From an uncultured bacterium (GTDB lineage: Bacteria; Patescibacteriota; Minisyncoccia; Phycocordibacterales; UBA9973): a DNA stretch of 32,209 nt. Where the stretch lies: assembly GCA_903907175.1 (NCBI GenBank), contig CAIVNB010000066.1, positions 1 through 32,209 of the forward strand, written 5' to 3'. The translations under genes were made by a program, and so were the position numbers. Positions 1 through 23,416 of the stretch are shown here, one piece after another (positions within the stretch are counted from its first letter, which is position 1; each line of letters opens with the position of its first letter). Below the pieces are notes generated by a model. That model worked only from the letters and a program-made list of their open reading frames with translations. It was not told the DNA's origin and searched no databases.

Positions 1-62
1 TGACAGGGACTAAGTCGTAACAAGGCACGGGTAGCGGAAGCTGCTCGTGGATTAATTCAATT
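1..62 (+). rRNA. 16S rRNA, 3' end only (window starts inside the gene)
   Basis: AAGTCGTAACAAGG universal motif at about 11-24, then h45-like CACG-G-GTAGC-GGAA-GCTGC-T-CGTG and GGAT; canonical CACCTCC tail not present. 3' boundary estimated. Confidence 0.93.
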
Positions 63-294
63 TGAAAATCGTTACAATTTTAATTTATTAAGATTGAAAC
101 TTTCATCTCAAATGAAAGTTTGACCTCGGAGAGGTTTAACTTATTGAGTCGGTATTGTGTCGCTCAATTGACGACACAATGGTTTGTAAGAACCCAAAAC
201 TTTCTGGCAAGAATGGAAAGACATTCATTAAAAAAGTTAAGTTTTACGCGAGTAAAACAAAGAACGAAACAAAACATAGAACAGCATAAACTAA

Positions 295-323
295 AAACAC
301 CTCGCGTAAGCGGGGTGTTTTTT
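295..323 (+). terminator. Rho-independent terminator downstream of the 16S trailer
   Basis: AAACACCTCGC-GTAA-GCGGGGTGTTT followed by T-run. Confidence 0.85.
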
Positions 324-337
324 GGTATAATAAAAGC
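323..337 (+). promoter_or_regulatory. Extended -10 (TGG-TATAAT) 6 nt before ATG 338
   Basis: TGGTATAAT then AAAAGC then ATG. Confidence 0.7.
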
Positions 338-1243
338 ATGAGTGTAAAACGAGTTGGCATATTAAGAGGAGGCGATATTGATAATTACGAAAATTCTTTA
401 CAAAAAGGAGGAGAACTTATTTTATATATTCATGAAAATTTAGCAGACAAGTGGAAACCGATTGATATTTTAATTGATAGGGATGGAATGTGGCATATTG
501 GCGGAATACCTACAAAGCCTGCAGAGTTGATAAACAAGGTTGATGTAGTTTGGAATACTTCACATCCAAATTTTTCTTTAATTCTAAAAAACTTGTTAGT
601 ACCAACAGTCGGGACAGATTCTTTTCCAGTCTTTTTGACAGAAAACCCGAAGAGGTTGGAGGATCACATGAAAGGTATTGGAGTAAAAATGCCAAGGCAT
701 ATTGTGTTTCCTCTATACCAAAAAGATTTCGATGGCAAGTACGATAGATATATTTTAAGAACAGCAAAAAAAGTACATGAGAAATTTTCTCCACCTTGGA
801 TAGTAAAGTCTTTGACTAATGATTTAAATATTGGAACTCATGTTGCAAATACTTATCCCGAACTAGTTGATGCTATAGAAGATATTTCAAATCATGACAA
901 AAGTATTTTGGTGGAAGAATTAATTGATGGTACGACTGCTTCAGTACATAGCATTAGAGGATTTAGGGGAGAAGAAATTTACAGCTTGCCGGCCATTGGG
1001 AATTTTTCTTCTTCTGAAAAAGAAAGACTAAATGAAATTTCAAAAGATATACACAGACATTTAAATATTTCAAATTATCTAAATTCTTTTTTTGTCTTAC
1101 ATCCAAGAAAGGGTGTGTTTCTAAAACAAATCGAATTTTCTCCAGACATAAAAGATGGTTCTAATTTTCATCAATCTTGTGAACTTGTTGGTGCAAAAGC
1201 ACACTCTGTGATAGAACATATCTTAGAAAAAGCTTTAGAATAA
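338..1243 (+). CDS. D-alanine--D-alanine ligase-like ATP-grasp protein (divergent)
   Basis: N-term VGILRGG, VEELIDGTTASVHSIRGFR ATP-grasp-like segment; 301 aa. Confidence 0.7.
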   Translation: MSVKRVGILRGGDIDNYENSLQKGGELILYIHENLADKWKPIDILIDRDGMWHIGGIPTKPAELINKVDVVWNTSHPNFSLILKNLLVPTVGTDSFPVFLTENPKRLEDHMKGIGVKMPRHIVFPLYQKDFDGKYDRYILRTAKKVHEKFSPPWIVKSLTNDLNIGTHVANTYPELVDAIEDISNHDKSILVEELIDGTTASVHSIRGFRGEEIYSLPAIGNFSSSEKERLNEISKDIHRHLNISNYLNSFFVLHPRKGVFLKQIEFSPDIKDGSNFHQSCELVGAKAHSVIEHILEKALE

Positions 1244-1832: not shown

Positions 1833-1854
1833 TTTTTTGTGCTAATATATATTT

Positions 1855-5866: not shown

Positions 5867-7096
5867 ATGAAGAATTTAATCAAAAATTTGAAGATTAAAA
5901 GACGAGCTATTGCCACTTTGGCGGCGTTTCACTTTTATGGTAATCCTTCCGCAAAGCTAAAAATTGTTGGAATAACAGGTACAAATGGCAAGACCACTAC
6001 TGCTACGCTTTTGTATAGGATAGCGACAGAGTTAGGCTATAAAGCAGGACTTATCGGTACTGTCGAGAATATCGTTGTGAAAGAAAAGAGGCCGACAGTA
6101 AATACGACGCCTGGACCAATGATTTTAAATCAGTTACTTTCCGAAATGGTAGAGGAAGGTTGCGAATATGTTTTTATGGAAGTTTCTTCTCATGGGATAG
6201 ACCAAAAACGCATTGCGGGCGTCAGTTTCATTGGTGGAATTTTTACAAATTTAACTCATGACCACTTGGACTATCACAAAAGTTTAGAGAATTATTTTTT
6301 AGCAAAAAAGAAATTTTTTCAAGATTTGCCAAGCAATTCTTTTGCATTATCAAATGCCGATGATGAACATGGCAGAGAAATGATAAAAGGCATTAAGGCG
6401 AAAAAGTTTTTTTATGGAATAAATAATGATGCCGACTTTAAAGGTGAAATAAAAAAGCTTGATTTTGATGGTCTTGAACTTTTATTTAATAGTGAGCACA
6501 TAAAGTCAAATTTACTTGGTAAATTTAACGCTTACAACTTGATTACTGTATGGAGTACTTGTGTATTGCTTGGTTTCGATATGGAAAAAGTAAAGAATAT
6601 TTTAAAAACAATAGAACCACCTACAGGGCGTTTCGAACATTTCATGTCAAATAATGGCATTTTAGGTATAGTTGATTATGCTCATACTCCTGATGCACTT
6701 GAGAAAATACTTTTAGCTGTTAAAGAAATAAAAGACAATGAAAGTAAAATAATTTCTGTTTTTGGTTGTGGCGGAGATAGGGATCCACTGAAGCGAAGGA
6801 TAATGGGTAAAATAGGTGCGACATTGTCCGATATCCCTATTTTTACATCTGACAACCCAAGAAACGAAGACCCCGATAAGATTATTGCCGAAATGAAGAC
6901 TGACTTACCAATGAGTATTTCCCAAAAAGTTAAAACGATTTCCAATAGGCGTGAGGCAATAATTGAGGCTACGAAAATTGCTAAAAAGGGAGATATAATT
7001 TTACTTGCTGGGAAAGGGCATGAAGACTATCAAGAAATAAAAGGGGCCAAGCATCATTTCAATGACATGGAAGAATTAAAAAATAATTTGGCTTAA
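5867..7096 (+). CDS. murE: UDP-N-acetylmuramyl-tripeptide synthetase MurE (start revised from the track's 5840)
   Basis: ITGTNGKTTTATLL, NTTPGP, HDHLDYHKS, TSDNPRNEDP (DNPR motif typical of meso-DAP-adding MurE). The track start GTG at 5840 lies in the extended -10 TGATATACT (5841-5849), so ATG 5867 is preferred. Confidence 0.93.
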   Translation: MKNLIKNLKIKRRAIATLAAFHFYGNPSAKLKIVGITGTNGKTTTATLLYRIATELGYKAGLIGTVENIVVKEKRPTVNTTPGPMILNQLLSEMVEEGCEYVFMEVSSHGIDQKRIAGVSFIGGIFTNLTHDHLDYHKSLENYFLAKKKFFQDLPSNSFALSNADDEHGREMIKGIKAKKFFYGINNDADFKGEIKKLDFDGLELLFNSEHIKSNLLGKFNAYNLITVWSTCVLLGFDMEKVKNILKTIEPPTGRFEHFMSNNGILGIVDYAHTPDALEKILLAVKEIKDNESKIISVFGCGGDRDPLKRRIMGKIGATLSDIPIFTSDNPRNEDPDKIIAEMKTDLPMSISQKVKTISNRREAIIEATKIAKKGDIILLAGKGHEDYQEIKGAKHHFNDMEELKNNLA

Positions 7097-8766
7097 TGAA
7101 AATAGAAATTAAACAATGCAATAAGTGCAAACAGGACTTTACCCTAGAGCAAGATGACTTTTCATTTTATGAAAAAATGAAAGTACCTGTACCGAAAATT
7201 TGTCCAGATTGTCGTTTTAAAATGCGAGCAATGTGGAGAAATGAAACGACTCTATATTCTGGGCAAAAGTGTGGTATGTGTGAGAAGGCAATTATCACAA
7301 TGTATAATCCAAAACTTCCTTACGTAAAATATTGCTACGACTGTTTTTATTCCGAAAAATGGAGTCCCGTAGACTATGCCACGGATTATGATAAGTCGCG
7401 ACCGTTTTTCGACCAAATGAAAGATTTTTTAATCAAAGTTCCTAAAATAAATTTAGGCATTTCTACTGGTGATGGTCAAAACCTAAACAGTGAGTACGTA
7501 AATATGGCTGGTGGTTGTAAGAATTGTTATCTTGTTTTTAATACAAGTCCAGCTGAAGAATTATTGTATTCGAGAGGCATAAAAAATGGGCTTGATTCAT
7601 CTGATATATATTTTGGAGTGACTTTTGAGCGTTGTTATGAATGTATAAATGTTCAAGAATCAGCCAGTGTCATATGGGGACAAAACGTTATGGGTTGTGT
7701 TGATTCGGCTTTTATTTTAAACGGAAGTGGACTTACGAATTGTTTTGGTTGTGTAAATTTACGTAACAAAAGTAATTGTTGGTTCAACGAACAACTAAGT
7801 GTTGAGGAGTACCAAAAAAGAATTAGAGAAATACGAGGAAGTTATAAAAAAACAGAAGAAGCAAAAAAGAAGTTTATAGAATTTTCTAAAACACTCCCTC
7901 GAAGAGAGAATAACAATTTAAAAACCGTGAACTCTATTGGAGATTATCTGACTGAATGCAGAAATGTCAAAAATTCATTTGAAGCAGCAAAAGCAGAAAA
8001 TTGTCGTTATCTTTTTTCTTCAAAAATGATAAAGGATTCTCTAGGCACTACGGGATATGGAACACAAAGTGAAATGCTGTTAGAAGTGGTTGCTACAGGA
8101 TATTGTAGTAACGTCATCGGTTCCTATTGGCCAGAAAATAGCCAAAACATAATGTACTCTTTTGACTTAAGAAATTGCCAGGATTGCATAGGTTGCGATG
8201 CGTTAAAAAATGGTAAATATTCGATTTTTAACAAAGAATATACAAAAGAAGAATATGAAGAACTAAAAGAGCATATTGTAAAAGAACTTACAGATTTAGG
8301 GATTCATGGGTTAATGATGCCGGCTGAGATTGCCCCTTTTGCTTACAATGAAAGCATTGCACAAGACAATTTACCTCTAACCAAAGAAGAAGCACAAGCA
8401 CAAGGATTTAGATGGGAGGATGATATTCAGATGACCAAAGGCAAAGAAACATTAAAGCCAGAAGAAATTCCTGATCACATAAGGGATGTTTCAGATTCTA
8501 TAACAAAAGAAATTTTGAAATGTATTACTTGCGAGAGAAATTACAAAATTACAGAACAAGAATTAACTTTTTATAAAAAAATTGTTTTACCGATTCCTCG
8601 CAAGTGTTTTTACTGCAGGCACAGAGACCGTGTTCGTCGTCGTGGTTCATTCCAATTCTTTATTCGTAAATGTTCAAACTGTGGGGAAGAGGTACATACA
8701 AATTTAACTGAAGAAGTAGCCCCGATTATGTATTGTGAGAAATGCTATCAGCAAGAAGTTATATAG
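7096..8766 (+). CDS. ZnR1: Cys-rich multi-zinc-ribbon protein, paralog 1
   Basis: CxxC ribbons at both ends (zf-trcl-like CNKCKQDFTLEQDDFSFYEKMKVPVPKICPDCR and CITCERNYKITEQELTFYKKIVLPIPRKCFYCR) and NCxxC-rich middle; TAATG junction with murE. Confidence 0.85.
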   Translation: MKIEIKQCNKCKQDFTLEQDDFSFYEKMKVPVPKICPDCRFKMRAMWRNETTLYSGQKCGMCEKAIITMYNPKLPYVKYCYDCFYSEKWSPVDYATDYDKSRPFFDQMKDFLIKVPKINLGISTGDGQNLNSEYVNMAGGCKNCYLVFNTSPAEELLYSRGIKNGLDSSDIYFGVTFERCYECINVQESASVIWGQNVMGCVDSAFILNGSGLTNCFGCVNLRNKSNCWFNEQLSVEEYQKRIREIRGSYKKTEEAKKKFIEFSKTLPRRENNNLKTVNSIGDYLTECRNVKNSFEAAKAENCRYLFSSKMIKDSLGTTGYGTQSEMLLEVVATGYCSNVIGSYWPENSQNIMYSFDLRNCQDCIGCDALKNGKYSIFNKEYTKEEYEELKEHIVKELTDLGIHGLMMPAEIAPFAYNESIAQDNLPLTKEEAQAQGFRWEDDIQMTKGKETLKPEEIPDHIRDVSDSITKEILKCITCERNYKITEQELTFYKKIVLPIPRKCFYCRHRDRVRRRGSFQFFIRKCSNCGEEVHTNLTEEVAPIMYCEKCYQQEVI

Positions 8767-8768
8767 AT

Positions 8769-10430
8769 ATGGAAAATAAAATTTGTGAAAAATGTAAGAG
8801 CGGATTTCAAGTTGATGAAAATGATCATATTTTTTATGATCGGACGAAAGTACCAGTACCAAAAAATTGCCCCACTTGCCGTCAGCAACAGCGCATGCTT
8901 TTTCGAAATTTTAAAACTCTTTATAAACGACCATCTGATAAATCAGGAAAGATGATTGTTTCTATGTATAATTCTGATGCTTTGTTTCCAGTTTGGGATA
9001 GTCCAGAGTGGTGGGCTGACGATTGGGATCCCATGGATTATGGATTAGAACTTGATTTATCAAAACAATTTCTTAAACAATTATACGAGCTCAAGAATAA
9101 AGTTCCTCATTTTGCCATAATGAATACAAAAAGTGAGAATTGTGAATATTCAAATATGACTATGGCGTCAAAAAATTGTTATTTGATTTTTGGTTGTGTA
9201 GAAGATGAAAATTGTGACTATGGGCATATAATTTGGAATTCAAAAGACTGTTTAGATAATCTTTATTTATATAAGTGTGAACTTTGTTATGAGTCAATTG
9301 ATTGTGTAATGTCAAATAAATTATTTTATTCTCAAGAATGTGAATCTTGCGTAGACTCTATTGGGCTTTATGATTGTAGGGATTGTGTAAATTGTATAGG
9401 CTCTGTTGGTTTGCGACATAAAAGTTACTGCATTTTTAATGAGCAGGTTTCAAAAGAAGAATATCAAAAATTTTTAGAGAAATATCCATTAAACAACGAA
9501 GCTAGTATTTTATATATTTTAGGGAAAAGAGAAGAATTAAGAAAAAAATTGCCAGCAAGATCTGTTTTTGGTTCGCATAATAACAATGTTTCAGGAGATC
9601 ATATTTATGGGGCTCGTAATGTTTTGCAATCATTTGATATTAAGAATGGTGGGGAGAATAGTAGGTACTGTTACACAGTAAGAAAACCAATAGATTGTTT
9701 TGATAATTCGTTTTCAAGTGACAACGAGTCTTGCTATCAGTTATTAACCGGAAGCAACAACAATAATGTAATAAGTGTTCACCTTACAATGAATTCAAGT
9801 TACACTTATTATTCAGAATTTTGTTTTAATTCCCCCAATTGTTTTGGATGCATTAGTTTAAGAAATAAGCAATATTGTATTTTAAATAAACAATACACCA
9901 AAGAAGAATACGAGCGTCTTTTACCACAGATTATAGAAAATATGACAAGCACAGGCGATTGGGGAAACTTCTTCCCAATATGGATGAGCCCATTTGACTA
10001 TAATGAATCAATTGCCAATGAATATATGCCACTTGAAAAGTCTGATGCACTCGCTCAAGGTTTCACTTGGCGTGATGACATTCCAAGCACAAAAGGACAA
10101 GAAAATTGTCAGTATAAAGATTTACCAAAAGATCCAAATGATTATAATGATGAAGATTTACTTAGTAAAATATTAAAATGTGAAGCATGCGATAAAAATT
10201 ACCGTTTCATATCAAGGGAAATTGCTTTTTATAAAAGGATGAAATTGGCCCTCCCATCAAAATGTTTTAATTGTCGCCATCAGACCAGGATGAATAATCG
10301 TAATCCAAGAATTTTAAATGAAGCGACGTGTGCTTCTTGTGGTAATATAACTCTAACTACATACCCAAAAGAAAAACACAAAATTTATAAAATATATTGC
10401 GAAGATTGCTATGAGCGTGAAATAAATTAA
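8769..10430 (+). CDS. ZnR2: Cys-rich multi-zinc-ribbon protein, paralog 2 (start revised from 8742)
   Basis: Same architecture as ZnR1; MENKICEKCKSGF start at 8769 lies just after the ZnR1 stop. Confidence 0.85.
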   Translation: MENKICEKCKSGFQVDENDHIFYDRTKVPVPKNCPTCRQQQRMLFRNFKTLYKRPSDKSGKMIVSMYNSDALFPVWDSPEWWADDWDPMDYGLELDLSKQFLKQLYELKNKVPHFAIMNTKSENCEYSNMTMASKNCYLIFGCVEDENCDYGHIIWNSKDCLDNLYLYKCELCYESIDCVMSNKLFYSQECESCVDSIGLYDCRDCVNCIGSVGLRHKSYCIFNEQVSKEEYQKFLEKYPLNNEASILYILGKREELRKKLPARSVFGSHNNNVSGDHIYGARNVLQSFDIKNGGENSRYCYTVRKPIDCFDNSFSSDNESCYQLLTGSNNNNVISVHLTMNSSYTYYSEFCFNSPNCFGCISLRNKQYCILNKQYTKEEYERLLPQIIENMTSTGDWGNFFPIWMSPFDYNESIANEYMPLEKSDALAQGFTWRDDIPSTKGQENCQYKDLPKDPNDYNDEDLLSKILKCEACDKNYRFISREIAFYKRMKLALPSKCFNCRHQTRMNNRNPRILNEATCASCGNITLTTYPKEKHKIYKIYCEDCYEREIN

Positions 10431-10463: not shown

Positions 10464-10479
10464 ATGATAATATCAAATT

Positions 10480-13044: not shown

Positions 13045-13619
13045 CAAAATACATTTTAGCAGGAGGATATCTTCATAATGCATCAGATGGGGGAAGGGCT
13101 TTTTGTGAAGAATTAATAAAAAATATTAATAAAAAACCAGTTAAAATACTTGACTGTATGTTTGCGCGTTTTTTAAATAGTTGGGAGATTAAGTTTAAAG
13201 AGGATGGGGAATTTTTTTCAAAATATATAAATAATTTTGAACTAATATTAGCTTCCCAGGAAAATTTTTTAGAGCAAGTAAAATCAGCAGATATTGTTTT
13301 TTTAAGAGGAGGAGAGACAGAACTTTTATTAGAAAGATTGAATAAAACTGGGAATTGGGTAAAAGAACTTGAAGGGAAAACTCTAGTTGGTACTTCAGCT
13401 GGCGGTGATGTAATATCTAAATATAGTTGGAATCTTGATTTAAAGAAAGTTGAAGAGTGCTTAGGGTTGTTGCCTATAAAATTTATTCCACATTGGCATT
13501 CCGATTACGATTCACCGAACATTGATTGGCAAAAAGCGTTTCAGGAATTAAAGGAATACAAAGAAGATTTACCGATTTATGCTTTAAAAGAAGGAGAATT
13601 TAAAGTTTTTGAAAAATAA
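13041..13619 (+). CDS. Peptidase S51 (PepE/cyanophycinase-like) family protein
   Basis: FLRGGETELL, LVGTSAGGDVISKY nucleophile elbow; ATGA overlap with the previous gene. Confidence 0.8.
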   Translation: MTKYILAGGYLHNASDGGRAFCEELIKNINKKPVKILDCMFARFLNSWEIKFKEDGEFFSKYINNFELILASQENFLEQVKSADIVFLRGGETELLLERLNKTGNWVKELEGKTLVGTSAGGDVISKYSWNLDLKKVEECLGLLPIKFIPHWHSDYDSPNIDWQKAFQELKEYKEDLPIYALKEGEFKVFEK

Positions 13620-13623
13620 ATTT

Positions 13624-15375
13624 ATGAATTCAGAAATTAGGAATTGTCAAAACTGCAGAAGGGATTTCGCTATAGAAGCTGAGGATTTTAATTTTTATGA
13701 AAAAATAAAAGTTCCACCACCGACTTTTTGTCCTGGTTGTCGTCTCCAGAGGCGTCTTGCATCTTACAATATTCGTACTTTATATAAAAGAAATTGTGAT
13801 AAATGCGGGGATTCAATGATTTCAATATATGCACCAGAATCTAAATGTATTGTTTATTGTACAAAGTGTTATTTCAATGATGACTGGGATCCAATGAGTT
13901 ACGGTAGAGATGTAGATTTTTTGAAACCTTTCTTGCAACAATTTCATGAATTGCGTATGGATATTCCTCAAATGCATATAAGGCATTCAAATAATAATGG
14001 TCCTAGTTGTGAATATGCTAATTCAACCTCGCATTCTTCTCATGCTTATCTTTCATATAATGTAGTTAAGTCTGACTATATTTATTATAGTTATCTAGTA
14101 AATAAAGAAAATAAAATGTGTGCCGATTCTTTTAATATAAAGAAAAATGAACTTGGATATGAACTAGTAAATTCTAATTTTAATTATAAAAGTATTTTTC
14201 TCACAGACTCGGAACAATGCGCTGACTCCTCGTTTTTGTTCAATTGCTCTAACTGCCTAAATTGTTTTATGTGCACGAATTTACGTAATAAAAATTATTG
14301 TTTTAGAAATGAACAACTCCCTAGAGAAGAATATTTAAAGAAATTTTTAGAGCTTGAAATGGGTAATGTTGATAACTTTGAAAATTTAAAAAAAGAATAT
14401 GAGGAAATATGTGCAAGGTCAATCCATTGCTATGCAAATATAATAAAATCTGAAGATTGTACTGGAAATTCGATTGAGAATTCAAAAAATGTTAAAGAGT
14501 CTTTTAATGTATGGGGTTGTGAAAATTTGAAGTTTTGTGCATTTTTGATGAATATTCATTCTGATGCATACGACATTACTGTAGCTGGTCGCGGAGAAAG
14601 ATCGTATGAACTTGTTACTAGCGGGGGTAATGGTGGCAATTTTGATTCAAAATTTTCACATCGTCTGCGTGGAGGGCATAACAATGAGTACTGTGATACT
14701 TGTAAAATTACAGATGATTTATTTGGATGTGTCGGGCTTTCTTCAAAGAATTATTGTATTTTGAATAAACAATATTCGAAAGAAGATTTTTTTATTTTAA
14801 AAGAAAAAATCATTGAACATATGAATACTATGCCCTATGTAGATAAAGTTGGGCGAGTATATAAGTACGGAGAATATTTCCCAATAGAGATTTCACAGGT
14901 TGCATATAACGAAACACTGGCTATAGAACAATTTCCATTAACAAAAGAAGAAGCATTGAGAGAGGGTTATGAGTGGCGAGATATCGAAAATAAAGAATAT
15001 AAAAATACAATTACTACTTCTGATTTACCAAAAAATATAAAGAATGTTTCTAATGATATTTTAAGTGAAACAATATTGTGTAGGCACGAAGCGAAGTGTT
15101 CACACCAATGTACAAAAAGTTATAGAATCATAGAAGAAGAATTAAATTTTTATAGACAAATGAATTTACCTCTACCAAGAGAATGTCCAAATTGTAGATA
15201 TTATAAAAGATTAGAAAGAACGAACCCTTGGAAACTATGGGACAGGAGGTGTATGTGTATTGATAAAAGTCATGAGCATACTTCTAGGTGCGAAAATAAT
15301 TTTAAAACAAATTATTCGCCCGATCGTCAAGAGATTGTCTATTGTAAAAAATGTTACCAGAAAGATATATATTAA
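13624..15375 (+). CDS. ZnR3: Cys-rich multi-zinc-ribbon protein, paralog 3 (start revised from 13609)
   Basis: NCQNCRRDFAIEAEDFNFYEKIKVPPPTFCPGCRLQRR...; C-terminal ECPNCRYYKRLERTNPWKL; same architecture as ZnR1 and ZnR2. Confidence 0.85.
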   Translation: MNSEIRNCQNCRRDFAIEAEDFNFYEKIKVPPPTFCPGCRLQRRLASYNIRTLYKRNCDKCGDSMISIYAPESKCIVYCTKCYFNDDWDPMSYGRDVDFLKPFLQQFHELRMDIPQMHIRHSNNNGPSCEYANSTSHSSHAYLSYNVVKSDYIYYSYLVNKENKMCADSFNIKKNELGYELVNSNFNYKSIFLTDSEQCADSSFLFNCSNCLNCFMCTNLRNKNYCFRNEQLPREEYLKKFLELEMGNVDNFENLKKEYEEICARSIHCYANIIKSEDCTGNSIENSKNVKESFNVWGCENLKFCAFLMNIHSDAYDITVAGRGERSYELVTSGGNGGNFDSKFSHRLRGGHNNEYCDTCKITDDLFGCVGLSSKNYCILNKQYSKEDFFILKEKIIEHMNTMPYVDKVGRVYKYGEYFPIEISQVAYNETLAIEQFPLTKEEALREGYEWRDIENKEYKNTITTSDLPKNIKNVSNDILSETILCRHEAKCSHQCTKSYRIIEEELNFYRQMNLPLPRECPNCRYYKRLERTNPWKLWDRRCMCIDKSHEHTSRCENNFKTNYSPDRQEIVYCKKCYQKDIY

Positions 15376-18219: not shown

Positions 18220-19308
18220 TTACTCTAGGTGTATCAAAGTCATCTTATGACTCTTTGGTTCAAATAGAGTGATTTGGAAATTGTATTTCTTTCCAAGTTC
18301 CAATTTTTCACGGAGTTTTGATTCAGAAGGGAAAGTAGAGTTGTGTACAAGTCCGGCTACTCCTTCTTTGATAGATACGAGAGCACCATGTTTATTGTAT
18401 TTTATGACTACACCTTCGATAATATCTCCCTTTTTCAATTTCCCTTCAAACTCCTTCCAAGGATTTTCTTTTAAAGCTTTGATTGAAAGAGATATTTTGC
18501 CATCTTTAATTTCAATGATTTTTGCCTTTACTTGATCTCCAATCTTAAACATTGAACGTGGATCTTCTACAAGCCCCCAATCAAGTTCTGATATGTGCAC
18601 AAGGCCTTCGAGTCCGTCTTCTAATTTCAAGAACATACCGAAGTCAACGATTCCTGCGATTACGCAAGTCATATCATCACCGACATTATATTTACTCAAT
18701 ATTTCTTTTTTTTCTTCAGGGTTATTGTCTTTTTCAGAAAAGATTAATTTACCTTCTTTTGGAAGAGTTGAAATAATTGTGACGGAAATTTTCTGACCAA
18801 CAAGTTTCTTCAATTCTTTTAATATTTTATCTTTATCAGAATCTTCTACTCGAGGGTAGTGATCACTCTTAAGCTGAGAAGCTGGCAAAAACCCTTGTAT
18901 TCCTTGCCAATCTAGGATTAAACCACCTTTATTTGCCTCCTTTATTTCCAAATCCATTACAGTCTTTGACTTGATTGCCTTTTCAGCTTCACTCCATATT
19001 AGAGCTTGTTTTGCTTCTCGGAGAGACAATTCTACATAGCCGTCTTCATTTTCTGCTTCGACAACTTTTGCTTTTATAATGTCGCCGATAGCTATTTTTT
19101 TAATAATGTCTTTAGCATTAATAAATTCTTTTCCGTAAATAATACCAGTTCCAAATGGTGATAAATCAACGAAAACAGATGACTTTTTCACCAAAATAAC
19201 TGGTCCTTCAACTAACGATTCTATTGCTGGCTTACTTTTACTTCGGTCAGTTATAGACTTCAAAACTAGATTCACATTTTCTTCTTTTATAATTTCTACT
19301 TTTTTCAT
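18220..19308 (-). CDS. rpsA: 30S ribosomal protein S1 (multiple S1 domains)
   Basis: Repeated S1 domains: GDIIKAKVVEAENEDGYVELSLREA, GDDMTCVIAGIVDFGMFLKLEDGLEGLVHISELDW, GDIIEGVVIKYNKHGALVSIKEGVAGLVH. Confidence 0.92.
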   Translation of the reverse strand: MKKVEIIKEENVNLVLKSITDRSKSKPAIESLVEGPVILVKKSSVFVDLSPFGTGIIYGKEFINAKDIIKKIAIGDIIKAKVVEAENEDGYVELSLREAKQALIWSEAEKAIKSKTVMDLEIKEANKGGLILDWQGIQGFLPASQLKSDHYPRVEDSDKDKILKELKKLVGQKISVTIISTLPKEGKLIFSEKDNNPEEKKEILSKYNVGDDMTCVIAGIVDFGMFLKLEDGLEGLVHISELDWGLVEDPRSMFKIGDQVKAKIIEIKDGKISLSIKALKENPWKEFEGKLKKGDIIEGVVIKYNKHGALVSIKEGVAGLVHNSTFPSESKLREKLELGKKYNFQITLFEPKSHKMTLIHLE

Positions 19309-23389: not shown

Positions 23390-23416
23390 TTATTTTTTGT
23401 AGTGTATAATTAAATT

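Follow-up and report, generated by a model that had tools for sequence, protein, structure and literature searches.

Among the described systems, those closest to the locus considered here are Ca. Campbellbacteria and Ca. Wolfebacteria, both of them Parcubacteria, as is the genome under study. One survey places them in category iv, where Shine-Dalgarno (SD) motifs are scarce and CCUCC is missing, together with Absconditabacteria, Peribacter, Chryseobacterium, Carsonella and others (PMC10783764). Bacteroidetes, Mycoplasma and endosymbionts are further groups in which the anti-Shine-Dalgarno sequence (aSD) is known to be lost (PMC6107228). The 128 aSD-lacking taxa of Amin et al. are mainly Bacteroidetes, Tenericutes and Proteobacteria, and Parcubacteria or CPR appear nowhere in that text (PMC6107228). 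Bacteroidia mostly retain the aSD sequence but have it sequestered by bS21/bS18/bS6 (PMC9976891). Leaderless bacteria, such as Mycobacterium tuberculosis and the GeneMarkS-2 leaderless group (cited in PMC9581028), have a -10 element that sets the transcription start site at the start codon.

The locus lies at the start of a window of 32,209 nucleotides, by which is meant the whole stretch of DNA analysed, from an uncultured bacterium of the Nomurabacteria lineage. The assembly behind it (G000; contig C66) has 835 kb in 88 contigs and is 92% complete. Like the category iv genomes, the window has no CCUCC past helix 45 (h45) of the 16S rRNA and few SD motifs. A first-pass annotation of this DNA had mentioned that aSD loss is reported in a few lineages, and related Parcubacteria are indeed among them (PMC10783764). 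However, the available passages of that source cover one genome each for Campbellbacteria and Wolfebacteria and do not treat leaderless initiation in them, whereas the loss described here is order-wide with decayed forms class-wide. For the taxa of Amin et al. the h45-anchored test was the same as here, and SD motifs are absent in them too. Leaderless bacteria share the -10 that sets the start-codon transcription start but keep the aSD, and SD for many genes; the window's lineage is without the aSD. Similarly, Bacteroidia translate without SD-aSD pairing, but the window's lineage has lost the aSD by substitution and its bS21 is divergent. A Bacteroidia-type buried aSD is ruled out, since the sequence itself is absent in the window. 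In a partial literature search, no paper on leaderless initiation in Patescibacteria and no report on the order-wide extent of aSD loss were found.

The 3' end of the 16S rRNA

The contig begins inside the 16S gene, position 1 of the window being 11 bases ahead of the conserved AAGTCGTAACAAGG. The features of this end and of the transcript beyond it are as follows.

12 to 25, forward strand: conserved 16S 3' segment AAGTCGTAACAAGG, just 5' of h45 (sequence, sole genome match, Rfam RF00177 alignment)
26 to 49, forward strand: 16S helix 45 with GGAA loop, intact, CACGGGTAGC-GGAA-GCTGCTCGTG (sequence, expected fold, kept in relatives)
50 to 62, forward strand: 16S 3' tail, GATTAATTCAATT where GATCACCTCCTTA is expected; aSD absent (sequence, Rfam, relatives)
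261 to 286, forward strand: 3' arm of the 16S precursor stem, AGAACGAAACAAAACATAGAACAGCA, complementary to the relatives' leader TGCTGTTTTTTGTTTTGTTTCGTTCT
294 to 323, forward strand: intrinsic terminator hairpin and T-run, end of the 16S transcript, with CACCTCG and not CACCTCC (sequence, fold)
338 to 1243, forward strand: D-Ala-D-Ala ligase C-terminal-like (ATP-grasp) protein, first gene past the 16S (ORF, protein annotation)

Directly after h45, positions 50-64 read GATTAATTCAATTTG. In the alignment to Rfam SSU_rRNA_bacteria (RF00177), window 1-62 corresponds to model positions 1472-1533 of 1533 with the length unchanged; the score of 44.6 bits is below the gathering score of 50, and the contig starts inside the gene. 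This base-for-base match implies that the aSD was replaced by substitution, neither by insertion nor by truncation. The absence of the aSD in the window's 16S is confirmed: h45 is intact and the single-stranded tail behind it has no CCUCC, as in category iv (PMC10783764). The first-pass annotation had seen the intact helix and the tail without aSD, and both stand on the sequence and the Rfam alignment; it placed the tail at 49-62, which is the right site, but base 49 is the last of h45 and the tail starts at 50.

The 16S trailer is of about 200 nt in the window and is followed by the strong terminator. As an RNA duplex of full leader against full trailer was too long to inform, the pairing of AGAACGAAACAAAACATAGAACAGCA with TGCTGTTTTTTGTTTTGTTTCGTTCT was judged by eye, with the leaders taken from three relatives' loci (L010, L011, L014), the window's own leader being off the contig. 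By sequence, the arm and the relatives' leader are arranged as in an ordinary processing stem. A 23S gene after the 16S was not seen in three relatives, within the loci searched.

Two further observations concern the rest of the window. A 71-nt hairpin at 1365-1435 (GTAGCGGGTAGTCGCACTC...GGTTAGCCACTACCCGCTTC; -25.8 kcal/mol, z -4.8), just past tRNA-Pro, has no Rfam match and is a possible small structured RNA. Three proteins of about 560-590 aa (7096-8766, 8742-10430, 13609-15375), interspersed among mur ligase genes, share a similar N-terminal CxxC (CNKCKQDF, CEKCKSGF, CQNCRRDF) and belong to no Pfam family.

Signals ahead of the start codons

Starts were modelled by an iterative codon-plus-upstream scheme, with GGAG, GAGG or AAGGA at -20 to -5 counted as an SD motif and -55 to -40 used as control. 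There is no excess of the motif at the modelled starts of the window's genome (5.6% vs 4.9% in the control) or in the Nomurabacteria pool (4.9% vs 7.9%). With naive starts, the window's genome has the motif at 8.1% vs 4.7% of first-of-operon genes and 2.6% vs 7.8% of internal ones, and for E. coli, run through the same pipeline, the corresponding values are 33% vs 13% and 47% vs 7%. The earlier descriptions of start regions without SD signal, and of an initiation system free of SD and aSD, are supported as far as they go. Judged from the sequence, SD-aSD pairing would be unable to select starts on the window's ribosome. Class members with an intact aSD make little use of SD too, so SD use seemingly fell before, or without, the loss of the tag.

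The AT-rich start contexts are SD-free as the first-pass annotation claimed, but it missed a precisely placed -10 box there. Ahead of the starts the profile is T-15 G-14 n T-12 A-11 T-10 A-9 A-8 T-7, which is an extended -10 promoter (TGnTATAAT) ending six bases ahead of ATG, and the implied transcription start is the A of ATG. In the window the box is seen at four starts.

323 to 331, forward strand: extended -10 TGGTATAAT, six bases ahead of ATG 338 of the ligase-like gene, with a predicted leaderless mRNA (box scan, position statistics)
1840 to 1848, forward strand: extended -10 TGCTAATAT, six bases ahead of the secA ATG 1855 (box scan, annotation)
10465 to 10473, forward strand: extended -10 TGATAATAT, six bases ahead of the MurD-like ligase ATG 10480 (box scan, annotation)
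23405 to 23410, forward strand: TATAAT -10 box, six bases ahead of the ATG of ORF 23417 (box scan)

At naive starts of first-of-operon genes, the box is exactly at -12 in 18.6% of cases in the window's genome (background 1.0%) and 21.7% in the pool (background 0.9%), against 0% in E. coli with the same pipeline. These first-in-operon boxes are preceded by TGn in 13 of 16 and 35 of 46 cases, respectively. A scan free of gene calls, for a TATAAT-like box followed by an open ATG, finds spacing six 35 times vs a mean of 10.2 in the window's genome (p 1e-9) and 93 times vs 17.0 in the pool (p 1e-37), and it is flat in E. coli (1 vs 1.2 at six bases). Likewise, TGNTAWWATN6ATG occurs 69 times across the window's genome vs 4 in the reversed control, and 38-67 times in seven further genomes of the same family. 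No clear position was found for a -35 element of the boxed promoters. The box is not confined to first genes, being present at 9% of starts close behind another gene in the window's genome and 16% in genome G028; most operon-internal starts are without it. Modelled starts are ATG in 161 of 162 cases in the window's genome and 158 of 164 in G028, a preference of the kind that leaderless initiation would favour; it is weaker in the pool (222 of 265), and the model may itself favour ATG.

Because the excess of TAnnnT at -12 above background amounts to 16% of all starts in the window's genome and 23% in the pool, leaderless mRNAs are predicted for roughly a sixth to a quarter of genes, secA and the MurD-like gene of the window among them. 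The box would account for no more than about 16-26% of starts. The DNA signal is that of leaderless bacteria, with a -10 spacing that puts the transcription start at the start codon above background. With so exactly placed a -10 box in AT-rich start contexts, leaderless initiation leads as the candidate mechanism, within an overall explanation in which we have fairly good confidence.

The strongest competitor is that the aSD is lost and starts are selected mainly via A-rich unstructured leaders, as in Bacteroidia, with bS1 and IF3, the boxes near ATG reflecting no more than short intergenic spacers and leaders. In its favour are upstream regions rich in A and free of SD, the presence of bS1-like and divergent bS21-like proteins, and the lack of a -12 box at most internal starts. 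However, short spacing alone would fix no single register, and the register is exact (in the pool, 93 boxes at spacing 6, 8 at spacing 5 and 48 at spacing 7) with a promoter-specific TGn, which speaks against such leaders as the main route and makes them an unlikely account.

IF3 is found in 29 of 31 genomes. Matches to bS21 are found in 14 of the 31, every one under the Pfam cut-off. The window itself encodes a bS1-like protein.

18220 to 19308, reverse strand: S1-domain protein with 4 S1 domains, bS1-like; not as long as rpsA, and scoring under the rpsA cut-off (domain search, annotation)

Two of the bS21 matches under the cut-off (L274, L275; genomes G046, G041) look by eye like divergent bS21 proteins, one of them directly upstream of a YbeY-like frame.

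Search for a concealed or substitute anti-SD

It could be that the mature 16S regains a CCUCC tail by splicing, by trans-joining or from an unassembled second copy, given that the assembly is 92% complete with its 16S cut by the contig end, and that introns are frequent in CPR rRNAs (PMC12641178). Several findings make this very improbable. There is no CACCTCC downstream of the tail anywhere in the window, which extends the earlier statement that none occurs in the ~240 nt up to the terminator, and CCTCC is missing over 10 kb; the closest resemblance is CACCTCG at 298-304, within the terminator hairpin. Among 26 16S ends, CACCTCC lies downstream in the same locus for only one, 1312 nt off. In G037, a relative whose complete genome is a single contig, there is one 16S match, likewise without CACCTCC. 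The starts, being without SD motifs, would offer no target for such a tail. A second CACCTCC copy and an intron with a downstream aSD had been named beforehand among the threats to the reading of a lost aSD. No further 16S was found in the 92%-complete assembly, nor a second AAGTCGTAACAAGG genome-wide with one mismatch allowed, and the relatives show neither an intron signature nor an aSD a short way downstream. An interrupted 16S 3' end, by intron or fragmentation, is not supported, as no CACCTCC continuation was found nearby downstream or elsewhere in the 92%-complete assembly.

It is just as hard to believe that the tail is a new, differently spelled anti-SD pairing with a new SD. The genus conserves the tail GAATAATTCAATTTGAA, but start regions pair with their own tail no better than shuffles do in the window's genome (-2.07 vs -2.05 kcal/mol), the pool (-1.57 vs -2.04 kcal/mol) or G028 (-1.53 vs -1.79 kcal/mol), and E. 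coli as positive control gives -5.69 vs -4.54 kcal/mol. In this pairing test a tail-complementary upstream motif is found in few genes, as in category iv (PMC10783764), and the idea of a replacement SD fitted to the new tail is not supported.

The tail in the order, the class and the phylum

The first-pass annotation had advised a check of the tail across genomes, and the tail proves consistent: CACCTCC is missing in 25 of 25 other 16S 3' ends from the genus and order, and a pattern search over named genomes finds 93 contig stretches with the window-type tail or a one-base variant, mostly of Ca. Nomurabacteria and Zambryskibacteria. The genus tail is GAATAATTCAATTTGAA or GATTAATTCAATTTGAA. Conservation of a tail variant among close relatives is again a property of category iv (PMC10783764). 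An assembly error or chimeric contig at the window's start, also foreseen in the first-pass annotation and suggested by the position of the tail, 50 bases inside the end of a MAG contig, and by rRNA contigs of G153, G267 and G171 that look misbinned, has practically no chance of being right, since the tail is common to many assemblies, with GATTAATT in 17 loci, GAATAATT in 72 and 25 of 25 genus and order ends without the aSD. Sequence comparison thus indicates that the aSD is truly lost in the window's lineage and throughout the order.

In other parts of the phylum loss of the tag is rare: among the matches listed, at least 138 tails from outside the class, 125 retain CCTCC and 13 are slightly altered. 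Within the class, a 16S tail is visible in 188 of 289 genomes and 68 match GRATNNCCTCC; there are also decayed tails (CATCTCC, TTTCTCC, CATTTCT) or nothing recognisable. Hence the tag in the window's class is intact, decayed or gone, varying by family.

Some other observations were made in the same comparison. Lost-tail genomes of the class mostly have CACG...CGTG at the base of h45 and intact ones mostly CATCC...GGATG, a difference that may reflect shared ancestry or a structural link. In family f176, outside the class, one- or two-base aSD changes (CATCTCC, CACTTCC, CATTTCC) occur in at least 7 genomes and are possible early decay. The order member G171 has an additional CACCTCC 16S with a different helix 45 (contig C6), which looks like contamination. 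The tail on G267:C15 is the same as that of G304 of family f102, and the tail on G153:C19 the same as that of family f70. All three are probably rRNA contigs that were binned wrongly into public MAGs or contaminate them, and because those of G267 and G153 look misbinned, two within-family tail contrasts are doubtful.

Anti-SD loss, box density and Era

The -10/ATG box signal is class-wide and strong in the window's family. The median number of boxes is 16.5 in lost-tail genomes of other families and 28 in the window's order, vs 12 in intact genomes (p about 1e-3 each, uncorrected for phylogeny and base composition). A simple coupling of aSD loss to leaderless density was rejected and there is a trend only, as some aSD-intact genomes have dense boxes (G293 54, G186 51, G213 41) and order members of family f26 have few (3-13). 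The leaderless signals make an SD-free life plausible, but they do not strictly track the tag. In family f73, six genomes (G176, G227, G288, G263, G302, G252) have 59-153 occurrences of TGNTAWWATN6ATG vs 1-9 in the control and no detectable 16S tail, and their intact-CACCTCC sisters have 10-17.

Era binds GAUCACCUCC (PMC10582724) and is reported absent from most Paceibacteria (PMC12641178). Among 289 class genomes the sole match above cut-off, in one genome, is a two-domain GTPase. With Era absent class-wide, one constraint on the 16S tail is gone, whether the tag is intact or lost. That Era loss specifically triggered aSD loss was rejected, Era being also absent in aSD-intact members; it is permissive at most.

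Proposed mechanism and significance

The explanation that joins aSD loss, no substitute pairing and leaderless starts via the extended -10 is, taken as a whole, probably correct. With SD use in the class already low and Era absent, little would have been left to hold the tail, which probably decayed for these reasons. The new tail has evolved no substitute pairing with start regions, and the mature 16S is predicted to end within about 15 nt of h45, on AAUUCAAUU. Judging by the position of the extended -10, which ends six bases before ATG in many transcription units, the A of the start codon would be the first base transcribed, giving a leaderless mRNA. Ribosomes, either 70S or 30S assisted by initiation factors, would then translate these mRNAs from their 5' AUG, as in known leaderless translation. 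Downstream genes of operons may be reached by termination-reinitiation together with unstructured A-rich leaders.

The loss itself is of a known kind, its order-wide extent is real, and the candidate replacement mechanism is newly seen and testable. A wider proposal, which we hold tentatively, is that a large order gave up SD-aSD entirely, that its transcription-unit starts are mainly leaderless, and that the class preserves the stages from intact through decayed to none. The aSD is among the most conserved bacterial sequences, and its loss across a diverse order, beyond single endosymbionts, is relevant to the question of its function. Gene finders that rely on SD sites will probably place starts wrongly here, and better results are expected from a start model that includes the -10 box. 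The intermediate tails in other families of the class make it possible to test the sequence of events, in which SD use falls, Era disappears and the tag decays, and, if the proposal is true, the class would be a natural series for the rebuilding of bacterial start selection.
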